Shown piece after piece: positions 8,230-16,231 of a stretch of 23,422 nucleotides of DNA. A program made the position numbers and the translations under genes. Each line of letters starts with the position of its first letter. Position 1 is the stretch's first letter. Origin of the DNA: Pseudomonadota bacterium (GTDB lineage: Bacteria > Myxococcota > Polyangia > GCA-2747355 > JACKDQ01); the NCBI GenBank assembly GCA_030591195.1, contig JAUVBO010000003.1, positions 1 to 23,422 on the forward strand, in the 5' to 3' direction. Under the pieces are notes generated by a model. That model was not told the DNA's origin, made no database searches, and saw nothing but the letters and a program-made list of their open reading frames with translations.

Positions 8230-8243
8230 GCGCCCTCAGGCGC
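8230..8243 (-). terminator. Small hairpin containing the TPR stop
   Basis: GCGCC (8230-8234) and GGCGC (8239-8243) pair around CTCA, which contains the stop codon of the minus-strand TPR gene. The stem is only 5 bp. Confidence 0.25.
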
Positions 8244-8700
8244 CTTCGATCTGGGCGACGAATGCGTAGATCCGCTGCTGGGACTGGGGGAAGAGCTTCG
8301 CCGTCTCGCGCAGGGTGGAGACAGCCTCGTCCTTCTTGCCCGCCTCGGAGAGCACTACCGCCAGGTCCCACCAGGGGTCGAGCCAGCCGGGCTTGAGCGC
8401 GATCGCCCGTCGGATGAAGATCATCCCATCGTCGACCTCGCCCTGGCGGGCGAGGGCCAGCCCCAGGCCCTTGAGCGCGTAGGGCCGGTTGGGGCTTAGC
8501 TCCAGCGCCCGTCGGCAGAGGCGTTCGCACTCGCTGTACCGTCCCTGAAAGAACCTGACGAATCCAAACAAATCAAGAACTCGTAGGTCGTCCGGCGCAG
8601 CTCCCTGGGCCTGGGTCAGCAGCTCGGCGGCCTGGTCAAACCGCCTGCCGTTGGCGGCCTGGCTCGCCTGCTTCAACAACTCGTCGACCGGTGCGGCCAT
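8236..8700 (-). CDS. Small TPR-repeat protein
   Basis: The protein has 154 residues, no signal peptide and no membrane segment. About four tandem 34-residue helix pairs fill it, with TPR-type spacing of small and large hydrophobic residues; the clearest is ALKGLGLALARQGEVDDGMI followed by ALKP. TPR proteins are scaffolds for protein contacts, so the partner is unknown. The start ATG at 8700 has GGGGGAT seven bases upstream. It is divergent from the phosphonate operon across 173 bases and could share regulation with it, but nothing in the sequence ties it to phosphonate chemistry. The last unit is short and ends in QQRIYAFVAQIEGA, which would form the capping helix. Confidence 0.82.
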   Translation of the reverse strand: MAAPVDELLKQASQAANGRRFDQAAELLTQAQGAAPDDLRVLDLFGFVRFFQGRYSECERLCRRALELSPNRPYALKGLGLALARQGEVDDGMIFIRRAIALKPGWLDPWWDLAVVLSEAGKKDEAVSTLRETAKLFPQSQQRIYAFVAQIEGA

Positions 8701-8873: not shown

Positions 8874-10499
8874 ATGCAGTCGAAAGCCAACCGCTTGAGA
8901 GAGCTGATGTTCTCCAAGGACGTCTCGATCCTGATGGAGGCCCACAACGGGCTCACCGCCAAGCTCGCCACCGGAGCCGGGTTCGAAGGGCTGTGGGGGT
9001 CGGGGCTCGCGATCTCGGCTGCCCTCGGCGTGCGCGACAACAACGAGGCGAGCTGGACCCAGGTGCTGGAGGTGCTCGAGTTCATGGCCGACGCCTCGCC
9101 GCTGCCGATCCTGCTCGATGGCGACACGGGCTACGGCAACTTCAACAACGCCCGGCGCCTGGTACGCAAGCTCGAGCAGCGTGGCGTGGCCGGCGTCTGC
9201 ATCGAGGACAAGCTGTTCCCCAAGACCAACAGCTTCATCGACGGCGACAAGCAGGCCCTGGCCGAGGTCGACGAGTTCTGCGGCAAGCTCAAGGCGATGA
9301 AGGATACCCAGCTTGACGACGACTTCGTCGTCATCGCCCGGCTTGAGGCGTTCATCGCCGGCTGGGGGCTGCAGGAAGCCTTGCTGCGGGCCCACGCCTA
9401 CGCCGACAGCGGCGCCGACGTGATCCTCTGTCACTCCAAGCGCAAGGACAGCGAGGAGATCCTCAGCTTCATCAAGCACTGGGACCGGGACGAGACCCCG
9501 GTGATCATCGTGCCGACCAAGTACCCGACCGAGCCGATCAGCAAGTTCGTCGAGCACGGGATCTACAACTTCATCTTCGCCAACCACACCCTCCGGACGG
9601 TCATCACCGCGGTGCAGAAGAACCTGAAGAAGCTGCGCGAGACCCAGGACCTGATGTCGATCGAGGACGAGATCGTGCCGGTCTCGGAGATCTTCCGCAT
9701 CCAGGACGCCCAGGAGCTCAAGGGCGCGGAGAAGGTCTACCTGCCGACGCCGAAGTCCGACGTGCGGGCGCTGGTGCTCGCGGCCAGCCAGGGCGACTTC
9801 GGCGAGCTGGTCGCCGACCGGCCGAAGTGCATGCTCTACGTCAAGGGCAAGCCGGTGCTGACCTGGCAGGTCGAGGCCTTCAACCGTCAGGGGGTCAAGC
9901 AGGTCGCCGTGGTGCGGGGCTACCACAAGGAAGCCGTCGCGCTCCAGGGGCCGCACTACTTCGACAACGACGACTACGCCACCACCGGCGAGCTCGCCTC
10001 GCTCTACGCCGCGCGCGACTACCTCAAGGGTGACCTGGTGGTGGCCTACGGCGACGTGCTGTTCGACGAGTTCATCCTCCGCAACCTGCTCGCCGAGGAG
10101 GCGCCGATCAGCCTCGCCGTCGACGCCTCGTGGAAGCTGCGCGATCGCGACGCCGACAAGAGCCGCGACCTGGTCGAGACCAGCGGGGTCTGCTCGCCGC
10201 TCGACCGTGGCCGCTGCACCCTGACCAAGGTCGGCGCCGAGGTCTCCGGTGACCAGGCCACCGGCGAGTGGGTCGGGCTGCTCGCCCTGCGCGGCGAGGG
10301 CACGGTCAAGGCGGTCGAGCTGCTGGACCGGATCGCCGCCGACGAGCCCGAGCTGCTCAAGAGCGGTGGCATCGAGACGCTGCTCAACCGCCTGGTCGCG
10401 GCGGGTGAGCAGGTCAACGTGGTCCACACCTACGGCCACTGGCACGACCTCGACGACGAGGAGTCGTTGCGCAAGGCGCGGGCAGTCACCAGCAGCTGA
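8874..10499 (+). CDS. aepX: Phosphoenolpyruvate phosphomutase fused to a nucleotidyltransferase-like domain
   Basis: Converts PEP to phosphonopyruvate, the C-P bond-forming first step of nearly all phosphonate pathways. Residues 1-~290 form an isocitrate lyase/PEP mutase barrel with DGDTGYGN at 82-89 and the diagnostic EDKLFPKTNS at 111-120. That signature separates true mutases from related lyases and hydrolases. Residues ~295-541 form a nucleotidyltransferase-like fold (VRALVLAASQGDFGEL, then RPKCMLYVKGKPVL). The usual GxGxR loop is replaced by SQGDFGE; as I recall, other mutase-fused domains look similar. Its activity is therefore uncertain. The start is ATG 8874 because GAGGGG lies eight bases upstream; ATG 8868 is too close to it, and a frame from 8793 has no support. 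It is the first gene of a five-gene operon, with the next start 10 bases after the stop. Confidence 0.93.
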   Translation: MQSKANRLRELMFSKDVSILMEAHNGLTAKLATGAGFEGLWGSGLAISAALGVRDNNEASWTQVLEVLEFMADASPLPILLDGDTGYGNFNNARRLVRKLEQRGVAGVCIEDKLFPKTNSFIDGDKQALAEVDEFCGKLKAMKDTQLDDDFVVIARLEAFIAGWGLQEALLRAHAYADSGADVILCHSKRKDSEEILSFIKHWDRDETPVIIVPTKYPTEPISKFVEHGIYNFIFANHTLRTVITAVQKNLKKLRETQDLMSIEDEIVPVSEIFRIQDAQELKGAEKVYLPTPKSDVRALVLAASQGDFGELVADRPKCMLYVKGKPVLTWQVEAFNRQGVKQVAVVRGYHKEAVALQGPHYFDNDDYATTGELASLYAARDYLKGDLVVAYGDVLFDEFILRNLLAEEAPISLAVDASWKLRDRDADKSRDLVETSGVCSPLDRGRCTLTKVGAEVSGDQATGEWVGLLALRGEGTVKAVELLDRIAADEPELLKSGGIETLLNRLVAAGEQVNVVHTYGHWHDLDDEESLRKARAVTSS

Positions 10500-10509
10500 G
10501 GAGCGAACG

Positions 10510-11661
10510 ATGCTGATCGAAGAGTTCGCCAGGATCCTCAAGGACCACGGCATCAGCAACGGTGCCGGCGTGCCCTGCTCGTACTTCAAGCCGCTGGTCA
10601 ACCACATGCTGGTCGACGAGGAGATGGACTACGTCTCGGCGGCGAGCGAGGGCGAGGCGGTGGCGATCGCCGCCGGGCTGACGACCGCCGGCCGGCCAGC
10701 CTTCGCGCTGATGCAGAACTCGGGGCTCGGCAACGCGGTCAACCCGGTGACCTCGCTGGTGCAGATCTACCAGATCCCGGTGACCCTGCTGGTCTCGCAC
10801 CGCGGCGAGCCCGGGCGCCCGGACGAGCCGCAGCACCTGATCATGGGCCAGATCACCGAGGAGCTGGCCCGGCTCTGCACCCTGCGGACGCATGTCTTCG
10901 ATCCGCCCGGGTTCCTCGCGCAGCTCGAGGCCGCCCAGCGCGCGCAGATCGCCGCGGCGTGGGTGGTCCGCAAGGGCCGGCTGGAGGGCGGCCCCAAGGC
11001 GCCGCCGATCGAGCTGGTGCTGAGGAGCGAGCGGGTCAACCCGCCGGCCAGCGGCGAGTGGGCCGCCGAGATGAGCCGCGAGCAGGCGCTGCGGCAGGTG
11101 CTGCCCTTGATCAACGCCGGCGGGGAGGACCGGCCGGCGGTGATCGCCACCACCGGCAAGCTCTCGCGCGAGCTCTACGAGCTCGACGATCGGGACCACG
11201 GCCGCGACAACCGCTTCTACATGGTCGGCTCGATGGGCTGCGCGGCGGGCTTCGGCCTCGGCGTGGCGGTGGCCCAGCCCTCACGCAAGGTGGTGGTGCT
11301 CGAGGGCGACGGTGCGGTGCTGATGAAGATGGGCACCCTGGCCACCGTCGGTGCCCTCGGGCGGGACAACTTTCACCACGTGGTCTTCGACAACGGCGTC
11401 CACGAGTCCACCGGCGGCCAGCGCACCTCCTCGGCGAGCGTCGACCTCGCCGCCGTCGCCGTCGCCTGCGGCTACCGGCTGGCCGAGACCGTCGGTGGCG
11501 AGGACGACTTCAAGGGCGCCCTCGATCGGCACCTCTCGACGCCGGGTCCGACGTTCCTCCGGCTGGCGATCAAGACCGGCTCGCGGGCGGACCTCGGACG
11601 GCCGAAGCTCTCGCCACGCCGCGGCTGGCTGCGGTTTTCCGGCTTCCTCAACCGCCGGTAG
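10510..11661 (+). CDS. aepY: Phosphonopyruvate decarboxylase
   Basis: Thiamine-diphosphate enzyme that decarboxylates phosphonopyruvate to phosphonoacetaldehyde, which pulls the unfavourable mutase equilibrium forward. The 383 residues match the family length. The pyrimidine-binding half carries SEGEAV at 46-51, with Glu47 or Glu49 in the position expected to activate the cofactor. The pyrophosphate half carries Gly266-Asp-Gly268 followed by FDNGVHESTGG, in the order of the ThDP/Mg-binding motif. SHRGEPGRPDEPQH in the middle is typical of these decarboxylases as opposed to sulfopyruvate decarboxylase subunits. GAGGAG overlapping the upstream stop is the ribosome binding site, so translation is probably coupled to the mutase. 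An inverted repeat covers the stop (11653-11680). Confidence 0.93.
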   Translation: MLIEEFARILKDHGISNGAGVPCSYFKPLVNHMLVDEEMDYVSAASEGEAVAIAAGLTTAGRPAFALMQNSGLGNAVNPVTSLVQIYQIPVTLLVSHRGEPGRPDEPQHLIMGQITEELARLCTLRTHVFDPPGFLAQLEAAQRAQIAAAWVVRKGRLEGGPKAPPIELVLRSERVNPPASGEWAAEMSREQALRQVLPLINAGGEDRPAVIATTGKLSRELYELDDRDHGRDNRFYMVGSMGCAAGFGLGVAVAQPSRKVVVLEGDGAVLMKMGTLATVGALGRDNFHHVVFDNGVHESTGGQRTSSASVDLAAVAVACGYRLAETVGGEDDFKGALDRHLSTPGPTFLRLAIKTGSRADLGRPKLSPRRGWLRFSGFLNRR

Positions 11662-11680
11662 GCCCGTACTGGAACCGGCG
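11653..11680 (+). terminator. Inverted repeat across the decarboxylase stop, within the operon
   Basis: CGCCGGT (11653-11659) and ACCGGCG (11674-11680) pair perfectly; the left arm ends in the T of the TAG stop. It sits in the 47-base gap before the nucleotidyltransferase gene and could cause partial termination or stabilise the upstream mRNA. No T-run follows. Confidence 0.3.
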
Positions 11681-11708
11681 CCGCCCGACCCAGAGAAAGA
11701 AGGACGCG

Positions 11709-12593
11709 ATGGATCGAGATCCCGCCGCCCCACCCTACGAGGCGGTGATCCTCGCTGCTGGCCGCGGCAGCCGCCTCGGCCAGCGTAGCGAGGAGATCCC
11801 CAAGGCCCTGCTGCCCCTCGGCCCGCGGGCCGCCGATGACCCGACCGAGACCTCGTTGCTGCGGCGCCAGTGCGAGCTGATGCACGCCGCCGGCGTCGAG
11901 CGGATCATCGTCGTCGTCGGATACCTGCGCCAGCAGCTGTTCGAGGCGATCGACAGCTGGGGCATCACGGGCGTGTCGACGGTGGTCAACCCGACGCCCG
12001 AGATCTGCACCTCGGGCAGCCTCCACAGCTTCCAGTTCGCCGTTCGAGCGGGCGTCGGTGTGCTCGACGGCTCGCGCCAGACCCTGCTCGTCGATGCCGA
12101 CATCGTCTACCACCACCGGATGCTCGACCTGTTGCTCGAGGCGCCGGCCGAGACGTCGGTCCTGGTCTGCGCCGGCGTTTGCTCGGACAACGAGGAGGTG
12201 CGGGTCTACGGCACCCTCGAGCGCCCACGCTTCCTCGGCAAGGGCCTCACCTCGGCGCTGGTCGGCGGGGAGCCCTGCCTCGGCGAGGCCACGGGCATCA
12301 TCAAGCTCGCTCCCGCTGACCACGCGCTGGTGCGTCAGACCATCGACTGGATGCTCGGTGATCCCGACGCGTCAGCCGACTCGGCGGTTCACCAGGGATT
12401 CGGGCCGGCCCGGCAGGCCACCGAGCACGAGGAGCTGACCCAGCGCCTGATGCACTACGGTCGGATCCGGACGGTGCGCTTCTCCGGCGCCGAGCTGCCG
12501 TTCATGGAGGTCGACAGCGAGGAGGAGTACGGCGTGCTGCGCGACGAGTTCTACCCGCGGCTGCTCGAGCTGGAGCAGGAGGGGCGGCGATGA
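11709..12593 (+). CDS. Nucleotidyltransferase, probable phosphonate cytidylyltransferase (PntC-like)
   Basis: The 294-residue protein has a canonical nucleotidyltransferase signature: Gly18-x-Gly20-x-Arg22 and Lys32 in AVILAAGRGSRL...PKALLPLG, plus Asp129-Ala-Asp131 for metal. Members transfer a nucleotidyl group from NTP to a phosphate or phosphonate. The likely reaction is CTP + 2-aminoethylphosphonate to CMP-AEP + PPi. This is inferred from context: the gene overlaps the AEP transaminase gene by four bases (ATGA). The Treponema denticola PntC enzyme, known to make CMP-AEP, is fused to an AEP transaminase. AAGGA lies upstream of the ATG at suitable spacing. A sugar-phosphate nucleotidyltransferase is a possible alternative, but there are no sugar genes nearby. 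Confidence 0.85.
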   Translation: MDRDPAAPPYEAVILAAGRGSRLGQRSEEIPKALLPLGPRAADDPTETSLLRRQCELMHAAGVERIIVVVGYLRQQLFEAIDSWGITGVSTVVNPTPEICTSGSLHSFQFAVRAGVGVLDGSRQTLLVDADIVYHHRMLDLLLEAPAETSVLVCAGVCSDNEEVRVYGTLERPRFLGKGLTSALVGGEPCLGEATGIIKLAPADHALVRQTIDWMLGDPDASADSAVHQGFGPARQATEHEELTQRLMHYGRIRTVRFSGAELPFMEVDSEEEYGVLRDEFYPRLLELEQEGRR

Positions 12594-13756
12594 CGCCAGG
12601 CGCGAGGATGGTGCTGCTCAACCCCGGGCCGGCCAACACCACCGAGACGGTCAAGGCGGCCCTGGTGCACCCGGACATCTGTCCCCGCGAGCGCGAGTTC
12701 GGCGAGCTGATGGCGCGGGTCGGGCGCCAGCTGGTGCAGGTGGTGCGGCCGCCGCTCGAGGCCCGGCCCGGCGATCTCGGCGACGTCGAGGACCCGGACT
12801 ATCTCGCGGTGCTCTTCTGCGGCTCGGGCACGGCCGCGGTGGAGGCCGCGGTGGCCTCGGCCGTGCCGTCGGGCGGGCGGCTGCTGGTGGTCGACAACGG
12901 TGCCTACGGCGCGCGGATGGTGAAGATCGCGGCGGCCTACGGCATCGCCTGCGACGTCGAGGGCTTCGCCTGGGGCGAGTGGCCCGACGTCGAGCGGATC
13001 GCCACGCGGCTCGACGCTGGCGGCTACAGCCAGCTCGCGGTGGTCCACCACGAGACGACCACCGGGATGCTCAACCCGGTGGAGCGAATCGGGGCGCTCT
13101 GCCGCGAGCGTGGGGTGGAGCTGATCGTCGACGCGATGTCGAGCTACGCCGGCCTGCCGATCGACATCGAGCGGCTCGGCGCCGACTACCTGATCTCCAG
13201 CGCCAACAAGTGCCTCCAGGGCATGGCCGGGCTCAGCTTCGTCATCTGTCGCCGGGTGGCGCTCGAGCGGCTCGAGGTGCCGGTGGGGCGCTCGCTCTAC
13301 CTCAACCTCAAGGAGCAGCAGCGGTACTTCGCCAGCAGCCGGCAGATGCGCTACACGCCGCCGGTGCAGCTGGCCTACGCGCTGGCCCGGGCGCTCGACG
13401 AGTTCTTCATCGAGGGCCAGCAGGCTCGTCGCGGGCGCTACGTCGGCTGCTTCGAGGCGCTCGATCGGGGGATGCGCGAGCTGGGCTTCGAGCGGCTGCT
13501 GGCAGAGCCGACGCTGTCGCGGATCCTCACCGCCTACGTCGAGCCTGACCACCCGGCCTACGACTACGACCGAATGCACGACCTGCTCTCCGGCCGTGGC
13601 TTCACGATCTACCCCGGCAAGGGGGCGATCAAGGAGACGTTCCGTCTGGCGAACATGGGCGCGATCACCGTCGAGGACATCCACCGCTTCCTCCAGGCGA
13701 TGGCCGAGACGATGGATGAGATGGGAATCCGCCCGCTATCTGCGAAGGCTCGTTAG
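12590..13756 (+). CDS. phnW: 2-aminoethylphosphonate:pyruvate aminotransferase family enzyme
   Basis: PLP enzyme of aminotransferase class V. SSANKCLQGMAG includes Lys207, the expected Schiff-base lysine, in almost the same context as characterised AEP transaminases. HHETTTGM and VDAMSSYAG are also family motifs. The N-terminal LLNPGPANTTETVK binds phosphate/phosphonate. In degradation, PhnW converts AEP to phosphonoacetaldehyde; beside a mutase and decarboxylase it should run in the other direction, making AEP from phosphonoacetaldehyde. No phosphonatase (phnX) or C-P lyase gene is present, which supports synthesis. At 388 residues it is slightly longer than usual. Its start overlaps the nucleotidyltransferase stop by four bases, indicating translational coupling. 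Confidence 0.92.
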   Translation: MTPGARMVLLNPGPANTTETVKAALVHPDICPREREFGELMARVGRQLVQVVRPPLEARPGDLGDVEDPDYLAVLFCGSGTAAVEAAVASAVPSGGRLLVVDNGAYGARMVKIAAAYGIACDVEGFAWGEWPDVERIATRLDAGGYSQLAVVHHETTTGMLNPVERIGALCRERGVELIVDAMSSYAGLPIDIERLGADYLISSANKCLQGMAGLSFVICRRVALERLEVPVGRSLYLNLKEQQRYFASSRQMRYTPPVQLAYALARALDEFFIEGQQARRGRYVGCFEALDRGMRELGFERLLAEPTLSRILTAYVEPDHPAYDYDRMHDLLSGRGFTIYPGKGAIKETFRLANMGAITVEDIHRFLQAMAETMDEMGIRPLSAKAR

Positions 13757-13775
13757 CGGGCGGTCCCCGGCTGCA

Positions 13776-14861
13776 ATGTCCCAGCAGAACGGCAGCCAAC
13801 AGCGTCAAGCGAGCAGCGACTTCGTCGCCGAGGTCAACTCGACCTTCGAGCCGCTGATCATCGCCAGGGTCTGCCAGCCGGTGCTCGAGCGGCTGCCCGA
13901 GAGCGTCGCGCCCAACGCGATCTCGCTCTTCAACCACTTCGTCAGCTGGCTGGTGGTCGCGATGGCGATCTCCTCGCCGCACCTCGGTCCGATCGGCCAG
14001 CCGGTGGCGCTGGTGCTGGCGGGCCTCGGCACCTTCGCGACGATGGTGATGGACTGCCTCGACGGGATGCAGGCCCGGCGCACCAACCGCTGCAGCAAGC
14101 TCGGCGAGCTGATGGACCACTGGCTCGACGCGATCCACGTGGTGCTCGGCGGCGTCGGAATCGTGATGGCCCTGCAGCTCGCGCCGTGGGCCGTGGCGGC
14201 GGTGGTGAGCACCACCGCGATGGTCTACAACGCCCAGCTGGTGCTCTACCACCACCGGGGGGCCTACGTGCACCCGCCGACCAGCGGCGTCGACGCCCAG
14301 GTCGGCGTCAGCGTCGGCTTTGTCGGCGCCGCGCTGTTCTTCTCCATCTTCTCGCGTCAGGAGCGCTGGGTCGAGCTGCTGCTGGCGGTGATCGCGGTCG
14401 TCGGGACCTTGGTCCAGACCCGCCTGGCGGCCTTCTACTATCGCCGGCTCGGACGGCTGGTGGTCCACCACCTCAAGTTCCTCGCGCTCTGCGGCGGCTG
14501 GGCGGCGCTCTACCTCGCCGGGGCGATCGACGCGCTGGCCTTCGTGCTGGCGATCACCTTCACCTCGTTTCGGGTCACCGGCTCCTACGTGCTCTACTCG
14601 ATCGTCAAGCAGCCCTACGGCGGCTTCGACTGGGGCCTGGCGCTGCTGATGCTGCTGATCGGCGTGCTCGGCCTCTTCGGCGGCGGCGCCGGCGCGCTGA
14701 CGATCCCCTGGCTCGTCGAGCCGCTGTCGGTGGCAGGCTACAGGGTGGCGCCGCGGGCGGCGCTCGACATCCTGCCCTACCTGGCGTTCGTCTACATCAT
14801 CGGGCGCAACCTGCACGAGCTCAGGGTCCACTTCGCCGAGCTCCGTCCCTCGCCGCGCTGA
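13776..14861 (+). CDS. CDP-alcohol phosphotransferase, ethanolaminephosphotransferase-like (putative phosphonolipid synthase)
   Basis: Integral membrane protein of 361 residues with about eight hydrophobic segments. The catalytic motif is complete: Asp93-x2-Asp96-Gly-x2-Ala-Arg101-x8-Gly110-x3-Asp114-x3-Asp118. Around it, QARRTN...LGELMDH and the preceding APN are much closer to eukaryotic choline/ethanolamine phosphotransferases (QARRTN, LGELFDH) than to bacterial PgsA or PssA. These enzymes transfer phosphoethanolamine from CDP-ethanolamine to diacylglycerol. In this operon the natural donor would be CMP-AEP, giving an aminoethylphosphonate lipid; the acceptor (diacylglycerol, ceramide or other) cannot be read from sequence. 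I start at ATG 13776, 19 bases after the transaminase stop, because a longer frame from 13596 lies inside that gene. Last gene of the operon. Confidence 0.9.
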   Translation: MSQQNGSQQRQASSDFVAEVNSTFEPLIIARVCQPVLERLPESVAPNAISLFNHFVSWLVVAMAISSPHLGPIGQPVALVLAGLGTFATMVMDCLDGMQARRTNRCSKLGELMDHWLDAIHVVLGGVGIVMALQLAPWAVAAVVSTTAMVYNAQLVLYHHRGAYVHPPTSGVDAQVGVSVGFVGAALFFSIFSRQERWVELLLAVIAVVGTLVQTRLAAFYYRRLGRLVVHHLKFLALCGGWAALYLAGAIDALAFVLAITFTSFRVTGSYVLYSIVKQPYGGFDWGLALLMLLIGVLGLFGGGAGALTIPWLVEPLSVAGYRVAPRAALDILPYLAFVYIIGRNLHELRVHFAELRPSPR

Positions 14862-14868: not shown

Positions 14869-14980
14869 CAGGGGGCTGTTTCTGGTGGATCTTCTTTGGT
14901 AACCTTGCCTGCAGAACCGAGCGATGGGCGTCGAGCGAGTGAATGCGCTCTGCCAGCTGCTCGTTAGAAATAGCGGTGTG

Positions 14981-16231
14981 ATGAGACAATCCAGACGGAT
15001 CCGCAACGGCCTGTTGGCCGCTTCGATTTTGTTGTTCCTTCCTTCGGTGATCGGCGCCGCGCCCCGGCGCAAGGGGACCAAGGACGATCCCTGGCGCCGG
15101 AGGTACCCCGCCAAGACCCGCCCCTACACGCCAAAGAAGTATCCGGATTACGGGTTGAAGGACACGGTCACCGAGGCCGGGCGCCGGGCCCGCGGCATGT
15201 GGCTCACGCCCTACTGGAACTACCGCGTCAAGCCCGCCAAGACCGCACGGATCCTCAAGCGCGCCGGGATGAACGCGGTGGTGATCGACATCAAGGACGA
15301 CTGGGGCCAGCTGCTCTACCCGTCGAAGATCCCGCTGTCCCGCGGCCTGCGGCGCTACCTGATCAAGGATCCGAAGGCGATGGTGGCCGCGTACCACCAG
15401 CACGGGATCTACGTCATCGCCCGGATCACGACCTTCAAGGACAGCAAGCTGCCGCTGCTCCGGCCCGATCTCTCGGCGCGCATCGGTCGCGGCGGCCGCC
15501 GGCTGTTTCGCGCCGGTGTCGGCTGGCTCGACGCCTACTCGGCCGAGGTGCAGGACTACCTGGTGGACATCGCCCGGGACATCGAGTCGTTCGGCTTCGA
15601 CGAGGTGCAGTTCGACTACGTCCGGTTTCCCAAGGGACGCGCCGGCAAGCACGGCATCTGGATGCACCAGGACAAGCGCGACCGGGCGACCCTGATCGCC
15701 GACTTTCTCGAGAAGGTCGACCGCGCGATCCGGATCCCGATCTCGGTCGCGACCTACGGGCTGACGACGCTGGTCGACGGCGATCCCCGGGGCCTCGGCC
15801 AGACCCTCGAGAGGATGGCGCGCCACGCCGAGATCCTCTCGCCGATGATGTACGCCAACGGGATGACGTCGTACTTCAAGGGCAACACCATCTCCAAGGG
15901 GGTCTACTCGCTGATCCACTGCGGGCTCTGGCGGGCGCGCCAGAAGGCGCCAGAGGTGATCCTGCGGCCCTACCTGCAGGCCTACGCCAACAGCGTGCCG
16001 TTCTACGGCCCCGAGTTCATCAAGAAGCAGGTGCTCGCCGCCTACCGCGCCGGCAGCCAGGGCTTCCTCTTCTGGAACCCACCGATGAAGATGCGGACGA
16101 TGACCACCGGCGTGCGGATGGTCGGCAAGACGGTGCTCGCCGACTTCCCGAACACGCCCGAGCGCTACAAGGAAAAGAGGAACGGCCCGAGCCGCTGGTG
16201 CCGCAAGCGCGGGGCCGTGTTTGGCAAGTAG
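14981..16231 (+). CDS. Exported DUF4015-type putative glycoside hydrolase
   Basis: I chose ATG 14981. It gives MRQSRRIRNGLLAASILLFL and a cleavage region IGAAPR, a typical Sec signal; the frame also opens at 14924, which would place 19 extra residues ahead of the basic n-region. After a basic linker comes a TIM-barrel-like domain of ~320 residues. It has GMWLTPYWNY, AVVIDIKDDWG and the characteristic FDEVQFDYVRFP, which I associate with the DUF4015/GH-like family. The Asp in FDYVRFP and the Asp in DIKDD are candidate acid residues. LSPMMY and GSQGFLFWN close the barrel. The substrate is unknown; a cell-wall or exopolysaccharide is plausible. It lies 119 bases after the phosphonate operon and may be its own unit. 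It converges with a minus-strand gene. Confidence 0.85.
   Translation: MRQSRRIRNGLLAASILLFLPSVIGAAPRRKGTKDDPWRRRYPAKTRPYTPKKYPDYGLKDTVTEAGRRARGMWLTPYWNYRVKPAKTARILKRAGMNAVVIDIKDDWGQLLYPSKIPLSRGLRRYLIKDPKAMVAAYHQHGIYVIARITTFKDSKLPLLRPDLSARIGRGGRRLFRAGVGWLDAYSAEVQDYLVDIARDIESFGFDEVQFDYVRFPKGRAGKHGIWMHQDKRDRATLIADFLEKVDRAIRIPISVATYGLTTLVDGDPRGLGQTLERMARHAEILSPMMYANGMTSYFKGNTISKGVYSLIHCGLWRARQKAPEVILRPYLQAYANSVPFYGPEFIKKQVLAAYRAGSQGFLFWNPPMKMRTMTTGVRMVGKTVLADFPNTPERYKEKRNGPSRWCRKRGAVFGK

Follow-up and report, generated by a model that had tools for sequence, protein, structure and literature searches.

Can a single compact gene cluster of a bacterium lead from phosphoenolpyruvate (PEP) to a lipid with a carbon–phosphorus head group? 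The question is raised by five adjacent genes located on the + strand at positions 8874–14861 of contig JAUVBO010000003.1 from a Pseudomonadota bacterium; the window, i.e., the whole stretch of DNA analyzed, is 23,422 nucleotides long. The consecutive gaps between the genes are 10, 47, −4, and 19 bases. Judging from sequences and structural models, we consider it probable (about 0.74) that the operon makes a phosphonolipid by the route PEP → 2-aminoethylphosphonate (AEP) → CMP-AEP → lipid, the last step being performed by the product of gene 5, a CDP-alcohol phosphotransferase (CDP-AP) of the CEPT1 type. The five-gene set was found again in other genomes; the grouping of the genes is therefore not a matter of chance. 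Knowledge of how bacteria make phosphonylated glycans and lipids, and of what these do, is described as close to nil (PMC6697681), and the compact operon offers a testable complete PEP-to-lipid route and a candidate last-step family.

The coordinates, strand, gene order, and gaps given in the first-pass annotation of this DNA agreed with the gene calls and junction sequences, and all motifs listed there (EDKLFPKTNS, GDG, SSANKCLQG with the pyridoxal phosphate (PLP) lysine, GxGxR, and the full CDP-AP motif) were found. The five-gene route it proposed is the best-supported reading; the NTP_transf_3 domain fused to gene 1 had been missed.

Predicted pathway and early enzymes

In the proposed pathway, the PEP mutase domain of gene 1 would convert PEP to phosphonopyruvate, which would be decarboxylated by the product of gene 2; decarboxylation of phosphonopyruvate pulls the unfavourable PEP mutase step forward. 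Gene 4 would transaminate phosphonoacetaldehyde to AEP, and gene 3 (PntC) would form CMP-AEP from AEP and CTP. At the membrane enzyme encoded by gene 5, a neutral lipid (probably diacylglycerol) would attack with its hydroxyl, which Glu111/His115 would activate; CMP would leave, and the lipid would receive the AEP group. This would yield an analogue of phosphatidylethanolamine (PE) with P–C replacing P–O–C on the head-group side. We infer that each of these reactions takes place in the organism, that AEP is the group transferred, that diacylglycerol accepts it, and that the product is located in the membrane. Phospholipase resistance, predicted earlier for such a lipid, would be partial: the head-group-side C–O–P bond (phospholipase D site) is missing by chemistry, but the glycerol–O–P and acyl ester bonds remain.

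Gene 1 (8874–10499, +; 541 aa) encodes a PEP mutase (PepM/AepX; TIGR02320, PF13714) with a C-terminal NTP_transf_3 domain (PF12804). Its score with TIGR02320, the PEP mutase model, was 353.7 bits (cut-off 319.55), and the closest solved structure was PEP mutase 1m1b (E 3.1e-112). The PEP mutase signature EDKLFPKTNS was located by motif search at residues 111–120 (9204–9233, +); the pattern EDKxxxxxNS occurred in 120/120 fused proteins, namely the query and 119 homologs among the matches listed, of 7999. The signature together with the model score places gene 1 among PEP mutases.

Gene 2 (10510–11661, +; 383 aa) encodes a thiamine diphosphate (ThDP) enzyme, phosphonopyruvate decarboxylase (Ppd/AepY), with a TIGR03297 score of 370.8 bits (cut-off 312.5) and the ThDP motif GDG at residue 266, both of which characterize this enzyme. 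Gene 4 (12590–13756, +; 388 aa), the start of which overlaps the end of gene 3 by 4 bases, is predicted to encode 2-aminoethylphosphonate transaminase (AEPT) from a TIGR03301 score of 390 bits (cut-off 360.8) and the PLP lysine, Lys207, within SSANKCLQG. Its closest solved structure was the AEPT half of the PntC-AEPT protein of Treponema denticola (Tde; 6pd1, E 8.6e-92). For genes 1, 2, and 4, scores over the cut-offs of curated models bear out the identities proposed in the first pass.

Two nucleotidyltransferase domains

The operon encodes two nucleotidyltransferase domains, gene 3 and the C-terminal domain of gene 1. Nucleotidyl activation of AEP is itself established (PMC6697681). Gene 3 (11709–12593, +; 294 aa), a stand-alone nucleotidyltransferase, is the probable PntC (CTP:AEP cytidylyltransferase) by its sequence features. 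Its family profile matched LicC (1jyk, E 1.9e-12) and Tde-PntC (6pd1, residues 3–172, E 1.1e-11). With GRGSR at residue 18 and GRGSR..PK intact, it has the PntC consensus GXG(T/S)RX4-8PK in the form GRGSRLGQRSEEIPK.

The fused domain of gene 1 (about residues 296–541; 9759–10499, +; Pfam match at residues 300–408) is, according to the model, of the PntC-like (PntC/LicC) fold. We weighed the reading that this domain is the CMP-AEP synthase and that gene 3 activates something else, and find it rather improbable. The GXG(T/S)R pyrophosphate loop is absent from the domain and from all 120 fused proteins listed, and a conserved ASKGDFG-like loop stands at the GxGxR position. Among the matches listed, GxGxR..PK was kept in 0/120 fused domains vs. 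120/120 stand-alone enzymes; of the latter, 118/120 had the strict form GXG(T/S)RX4-8PK, and two narrower patterns gave 103/120 and 110/120. Replacement of the loop Arg by Ala in Tde-PntC is described as leaving <10% activity (PMC6697681). In addition, the overlap of gene 3 with the AEPT gene mirrors the PntC-AEPT fusion of T. denticola. The fused domain is thus a conserved partner that lacks the arginine of the pyrophosphate loop, and it is unlikely to be the main CMP-AEP synthase.

The last enzyme

Gene 5 (P0005; 13776–14861, +; 361 aa) encodes a class II (CEPT1-type) CDP-AP, and its sequence makes a CMP-AEP:lipid transferase its probable function. It scored 56.5 with the Pfam model CDP-OH_P_transf (cut-off 22). 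The CDP-AP motif DCLDGMQARRTNRCSKLGELMDHWLD (residues 93–118; 14052–14129, +) includes a catalytic-type pair, Glu111/His115, and corresponds to the class II pattern D1xxD2GxxAR...GExxD3HxxD4 (88/91). The extra Glu/His pair has been described in CHPT1/CEPT1; according to the same source, it is missing from most bacterial CDP-APs, and the helices TM7–10 occur only in eukaryotic ones (PMC10182977). Gene 5 is predicted by modelling to have these extra C-terminal helices and the whole-length CEPT1 fold; its bacterial family carries, as judged by sequences and models, both TM7–10 and the Glu/His pair.

Gene 5 shares with eukaryotic CHPT1/CEPT1 (8ero, 8gyw), the type of enzyme by which animals produce their chief membrane lipids, the fold over 315 residues, the CDP-AP motif, and the Glu/His pair, at a core identity of 31%. 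Asn47, Glu25, and Gln154 of gene 5 sit at the positions of Asn64, Glu43, and Gln175 of CHPT1. The position of the choline-contacting Trp50 of CHPT1/CEPT1 is occupied by Cys33 in gene 5 (Cys in 40/45 aligned rows); the Trp50-type aromatic contact for a quaternary amine, which marks choline-using class II enzymes, is absent from it. Enzymes of the eukaryotic type to which gene 5 belongs transfer polar head groups linked to CMP onto lipid alcohols, and this lends better support to the type of last step proposed.

The possibility that gene 5 is an ordinary bacterial phosphatidyltransferase with a lipophilic CDP donor was rejected from the distribution of GExxDHxxD among CDP-AP matches. Out of 34 matches in six genomes, 30 loci were checked together with the operon gene of genome G159 (from L027), and 3 matches lay outside the survey. 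GExxDHxxD was found in 4/30 loci (L055, L061, L065, L066), all of which are also gene 5 matches, and in the G159 operon gene; L062 had GDxxDHxxD, and the other 25 checked loci had neither form.

The gene 5 family acts on a lipid hydroxyl and leaves open which one; the acceptor in the same pathway might be ceramide or another lipid alcohol, giving a sphingophosphonolipid (ceramide-AEP). The bacterial phosphonolipids described from relatives of Bdellovibrio are built on ceramide, and a ceramide-phosphoethanolamine synthase of an insect is a member of the CDP-AP family. The closest solved relatives of gene 5 are reported to use diacylglycerol (PMC10182977, PMC10156783), and we regard a ceramide-type acceptor as unlikely, if worth keeping in mind.

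The clade of gene 5 also contains five proteins from the sources eukprot and merc, the latter a catalogue of marine eukaryotes. These proteins (P0088, P0091–P0094) have a core identity of 36–49% to P0005 (P0093 over 71 columns only) and 24–32% to CEPT1. QCSKLGE.LDH.LD is present in all five, and YNAQL.LYHH in P0088, P0092, P0093, and P0094. Contamination of the collections may account for their presence there. The occurrence of the clade there means that such an enzyme could be the last one of phosphonolipid synthesis in some eukaryotes.

Recurrence of the operon

A match to gene 5 at E ≤ 0.001 was found in 14/195 genomes of the phylum of genome G001; matches at E < 1e-10 were confined to G001, G019, G159, and G184. 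Gene 1 was matched at E ≤ 1e-60 in five of these 195 genomes (G001, G011, G019, G135, G159). A scan of the genome contigs with gene 5 gave one locus, and a search of plasmids at E ≤ 1e-5 gave no match.

A neighbourhood search, suggested in the first-pass annotation, recovered the five-gene order without change in one genome. G019 has all five genes ordered as in the window, whereas G159 has homologs of all five in rearranged order, and in G184, ppd, nucleotidyltransferase, AEPT, and CEPT-like genes adjoin a PEP mutase with an N-terminal PF01467 fusion. In G001, the set is split: one contig carries the gene 1 homolog at its end, and a second contig starts within the gene 3 homolog, followed by genes 4 and 5. 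The G184 protein (L026:4913-6280), a PEP mutase with an N-terminal PF01467 cytidylyltransferase, represents another build of the same module, which includes a PntC-like gene.

The gene 1 match of G011 has EDNIFPKRCS instead of EDKxxxxxNS, and that of G135 lies on a 4948-base contig; no homologs of genes 2–5 were found in the stretches around these two matches. The G011 protein with EDNIFPKRCS (L037:8141-9811) is PEP-mutase-like and fused to a nucleotidyltransferase-like stretch.

Among 39 gene 5 homologs on contigs of at least 4 kb, 10 were on a contig whose size equalled exactly that of a contig with a gene 1 or gene 3 homolog from the lists; when the sizes were shifted 120 times, such coincidences averaged 0.15 and never exceeded 1. 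The partner lists comprised 120 of 7999 gene 1 rows and 120 of 302 gene 3 rows; more partners may exist.

Evidence against the pathway and a glycan alternative

Several observations weigh against the phosphonolipid pathway. By its sequence, gene 5 may use CDP-ethanolamine rather than CMP-AEP as donor. The profile of gene 3 scores LicC as high as PntC, and where Tde-PntC has Glu104, which faces the AEP amine, gene 3 has Asp129 in the alignment, a feature shared with the choline-specific LicC. The operon enzyme of G159 retains Trp in the column of gene 5 Cys33; loss of the choline-contact Trp is therefore no rule of phosphonate operons. The CEPT-like enzymes of G159 and G184 belong to another branch than gene 5: CEPT1, CHPT1, 8ul9, G159, G184, and G019-C24 were grouped apart from the P0005 clade with a support of 0.977, in a tree of about 127 columns that included solved enzymes as fragments and some weak supports and was used only for that grouping. 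In G019, the homolog C75, located outside the operon, is 44–45% identical to P0005 and the operon copy 35–37%; the gene 5 family is thus not confined to phosphonate operons. Gene 1 and genes 3–5 of G001 are on separate contigs, and ppd was not found on either stretch. Finally, 29/39 gene 5 homologs on contigs of at least 4 kb had no partner among the matches listed.

The region of Glu196, the second AEP-amine contact of Tde-PntC, falls outside the gene 3 alignment. Ari-PntC is described in print as AEP-specific, yet nearer to LicC than Tde-PntC is.

A bolder proposal would make gene 5 the founder of a separate class II family, the CMP-AEP:lipid phosphonotransferases, which would define a second, independently assembled type of bacterial phosphonolipid operon and possibly occur in eukaryotes too; the fused domain would be kept for binding, channelling, or feedback, with the stand-alone PntC doing the chemistry. 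We put it forward tentatively and hold it to be doubtful, and the Trp retained in G159 makes both this proposal and the phosphonolipid pathway slightly less likely.

CMP-AEP could also serve a phosphonoglycan or another surface polymer, with gene 5 as a bystander phospholipid enzyme, e.g., CDP-ethanolamine:diacylglycerol transferase. Many PEP mutase clusters are reported to be linked to glycan genes (PMC6697681, PMC8931226), G019 has CEPT-type paralogs outside the phosphonate operon too, and a gene for a DUF4015 putative glycosyl hydrolase (14924–16231, +) lies 62 bases downstream of the operon. Against this, Pfam scanning of 17 window proteins (some small open reading frames were outside the scan) turned up no glycosyltransferase, LicD-like, ethanolamine-kinase, or PF01467 gene. 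A CEPT-type gene again stands beside pepM, ppd, and AEPT in G019, G159, and G184. When 11 stretches surrounding related genes were searched by tblastn, neither the DUF4015 gene nor the TPR gene to the left of the operon (8236–8700, opposite strand) was matched, and both were therefore excluded from the operon function. Phosphatidylserine decarboxylase (PF02666) is present in three of the four relatives, G019, G159, and G184, so that PE is possible there without gene 5; it also follows that replacement of PE by a phosphonolipid is no general rule. No such gene was found in G001, a possibly incomplete genome. We judge the glycan alternative very unlikely.

Two CEPT-type paralogs of G019 are located outside its phosphonate operon (L023:8549-9682 and L025:8158-9192); the former stands in divergent orientation to a CRP-like regulator gene, and it resembles P0005 more than the copy within the operon does.

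Genomic surroundings

The G+C content of the window is 68%. Where close relatives of its proteins have a name, which is seldom, they are mostly from metagenome bins of Myxococcales, Polyangiales, Myxococcota, and Deltaproteobacteria, with one from Pseudomonadota. Together, these data make it likely that the DNA comes from a relative of the Myxococcota. The DUF4015 gene, being on the same strand as the operon, could be co-transcribed with it. An Alpha-2-macroglobulin-type protein with a TED domain is encoded at 67–2301, in a frame open at the left window edge. The tRNA and Rfam scans of the window gave no matches.

Comparison with known phosphonolipid systems

The concept of a phosphonolipid cluster is not new, such clusters being already in print. 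The legend of Fig. 7 in PMC5987646 describes a cluster of lichen Nostoc with pepM, ppd, AEPT, nucleotidyltransferase (NTPT), CDP-alcohol phosphatidyltransferase, and 2-oxoglutarate (2OG)-Fe(II) oxygenase genes, alongside a Burkholderia cluster; a pathway, modelled on that of Yu et al. 2013, is also proposed there in connection with a phosphonolipid paragraph. Compared by this published description and not by protein sequence, the core set (pepM, ppd, AEPT, NTPT, and CDP-AP together) is present in the window; the 2OG-Fe(II) oxygenase and hpnL-labelled genes were not among the 17 window proteins scanned.

Similar clusters were found on plasmid records of Mycetohabitans rhizoxinica, Roseomonas marmotae, Cupriavidus sp. 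P-10, and Burkholderia arboris (L069–L072), with gene 1 homologs of 49–51% identity. Like the window, they have pepM fused to an NTP transferase, ppd, a stand-alone NTP transferase, AEPT, and a CDP-AP; however, the CDP-AP lacks the GExxDHxxD pair in 4/4 of them (GHFYDLAAD, GHFYDLASD, GHRYDLVSD), whereas the window enzyme has it. In two annotated clusters, this enzyme is 231 and 200 aa long, in contrast to the 361-aa CEPT1-type gene 5. These two clusters also have a protein with a lysylphosphatidylglycerol-synthase domain, and the Mycetohabitans one a 2OG-Fe(II) oxygenase as well; the 17 scanned proteins of the window include neither. The short-CDP-AP cluster of the Roseomonas marmotae plasmid p1318-3 (L070) adjoins ispH, hpnH, and squalene-hopene cyclase genes of hopanoid synthesis.

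In the PntC-AEPT protein of T. denticola (6pd1/6pd2), the cytidylyltransferase matches gene 3 and the transaminase matches gene 4; the two are fused there but separate and overlapping in the window, and one amine-contact Glu is Asp in gene 3. The CDP-choline pathway of T. denticola (LicAC, CPT), known here by description, transfers a CMP-linked polar head group to diacylglycerol in a bacterium (PMC6805115) and sets a precedent among bacteria for a last step of the Kennedy type; its head group is choline taken from outside, whereas AEP would be made from PEP in the window organism. Among the titles and abstract openings listed in searches of the open-licence literature, none named a CEPT-type enzyme in a pepM operon. 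By its sequences, the window operon is a variant of the published phosphonolipid clusters with another type of last enzyme.
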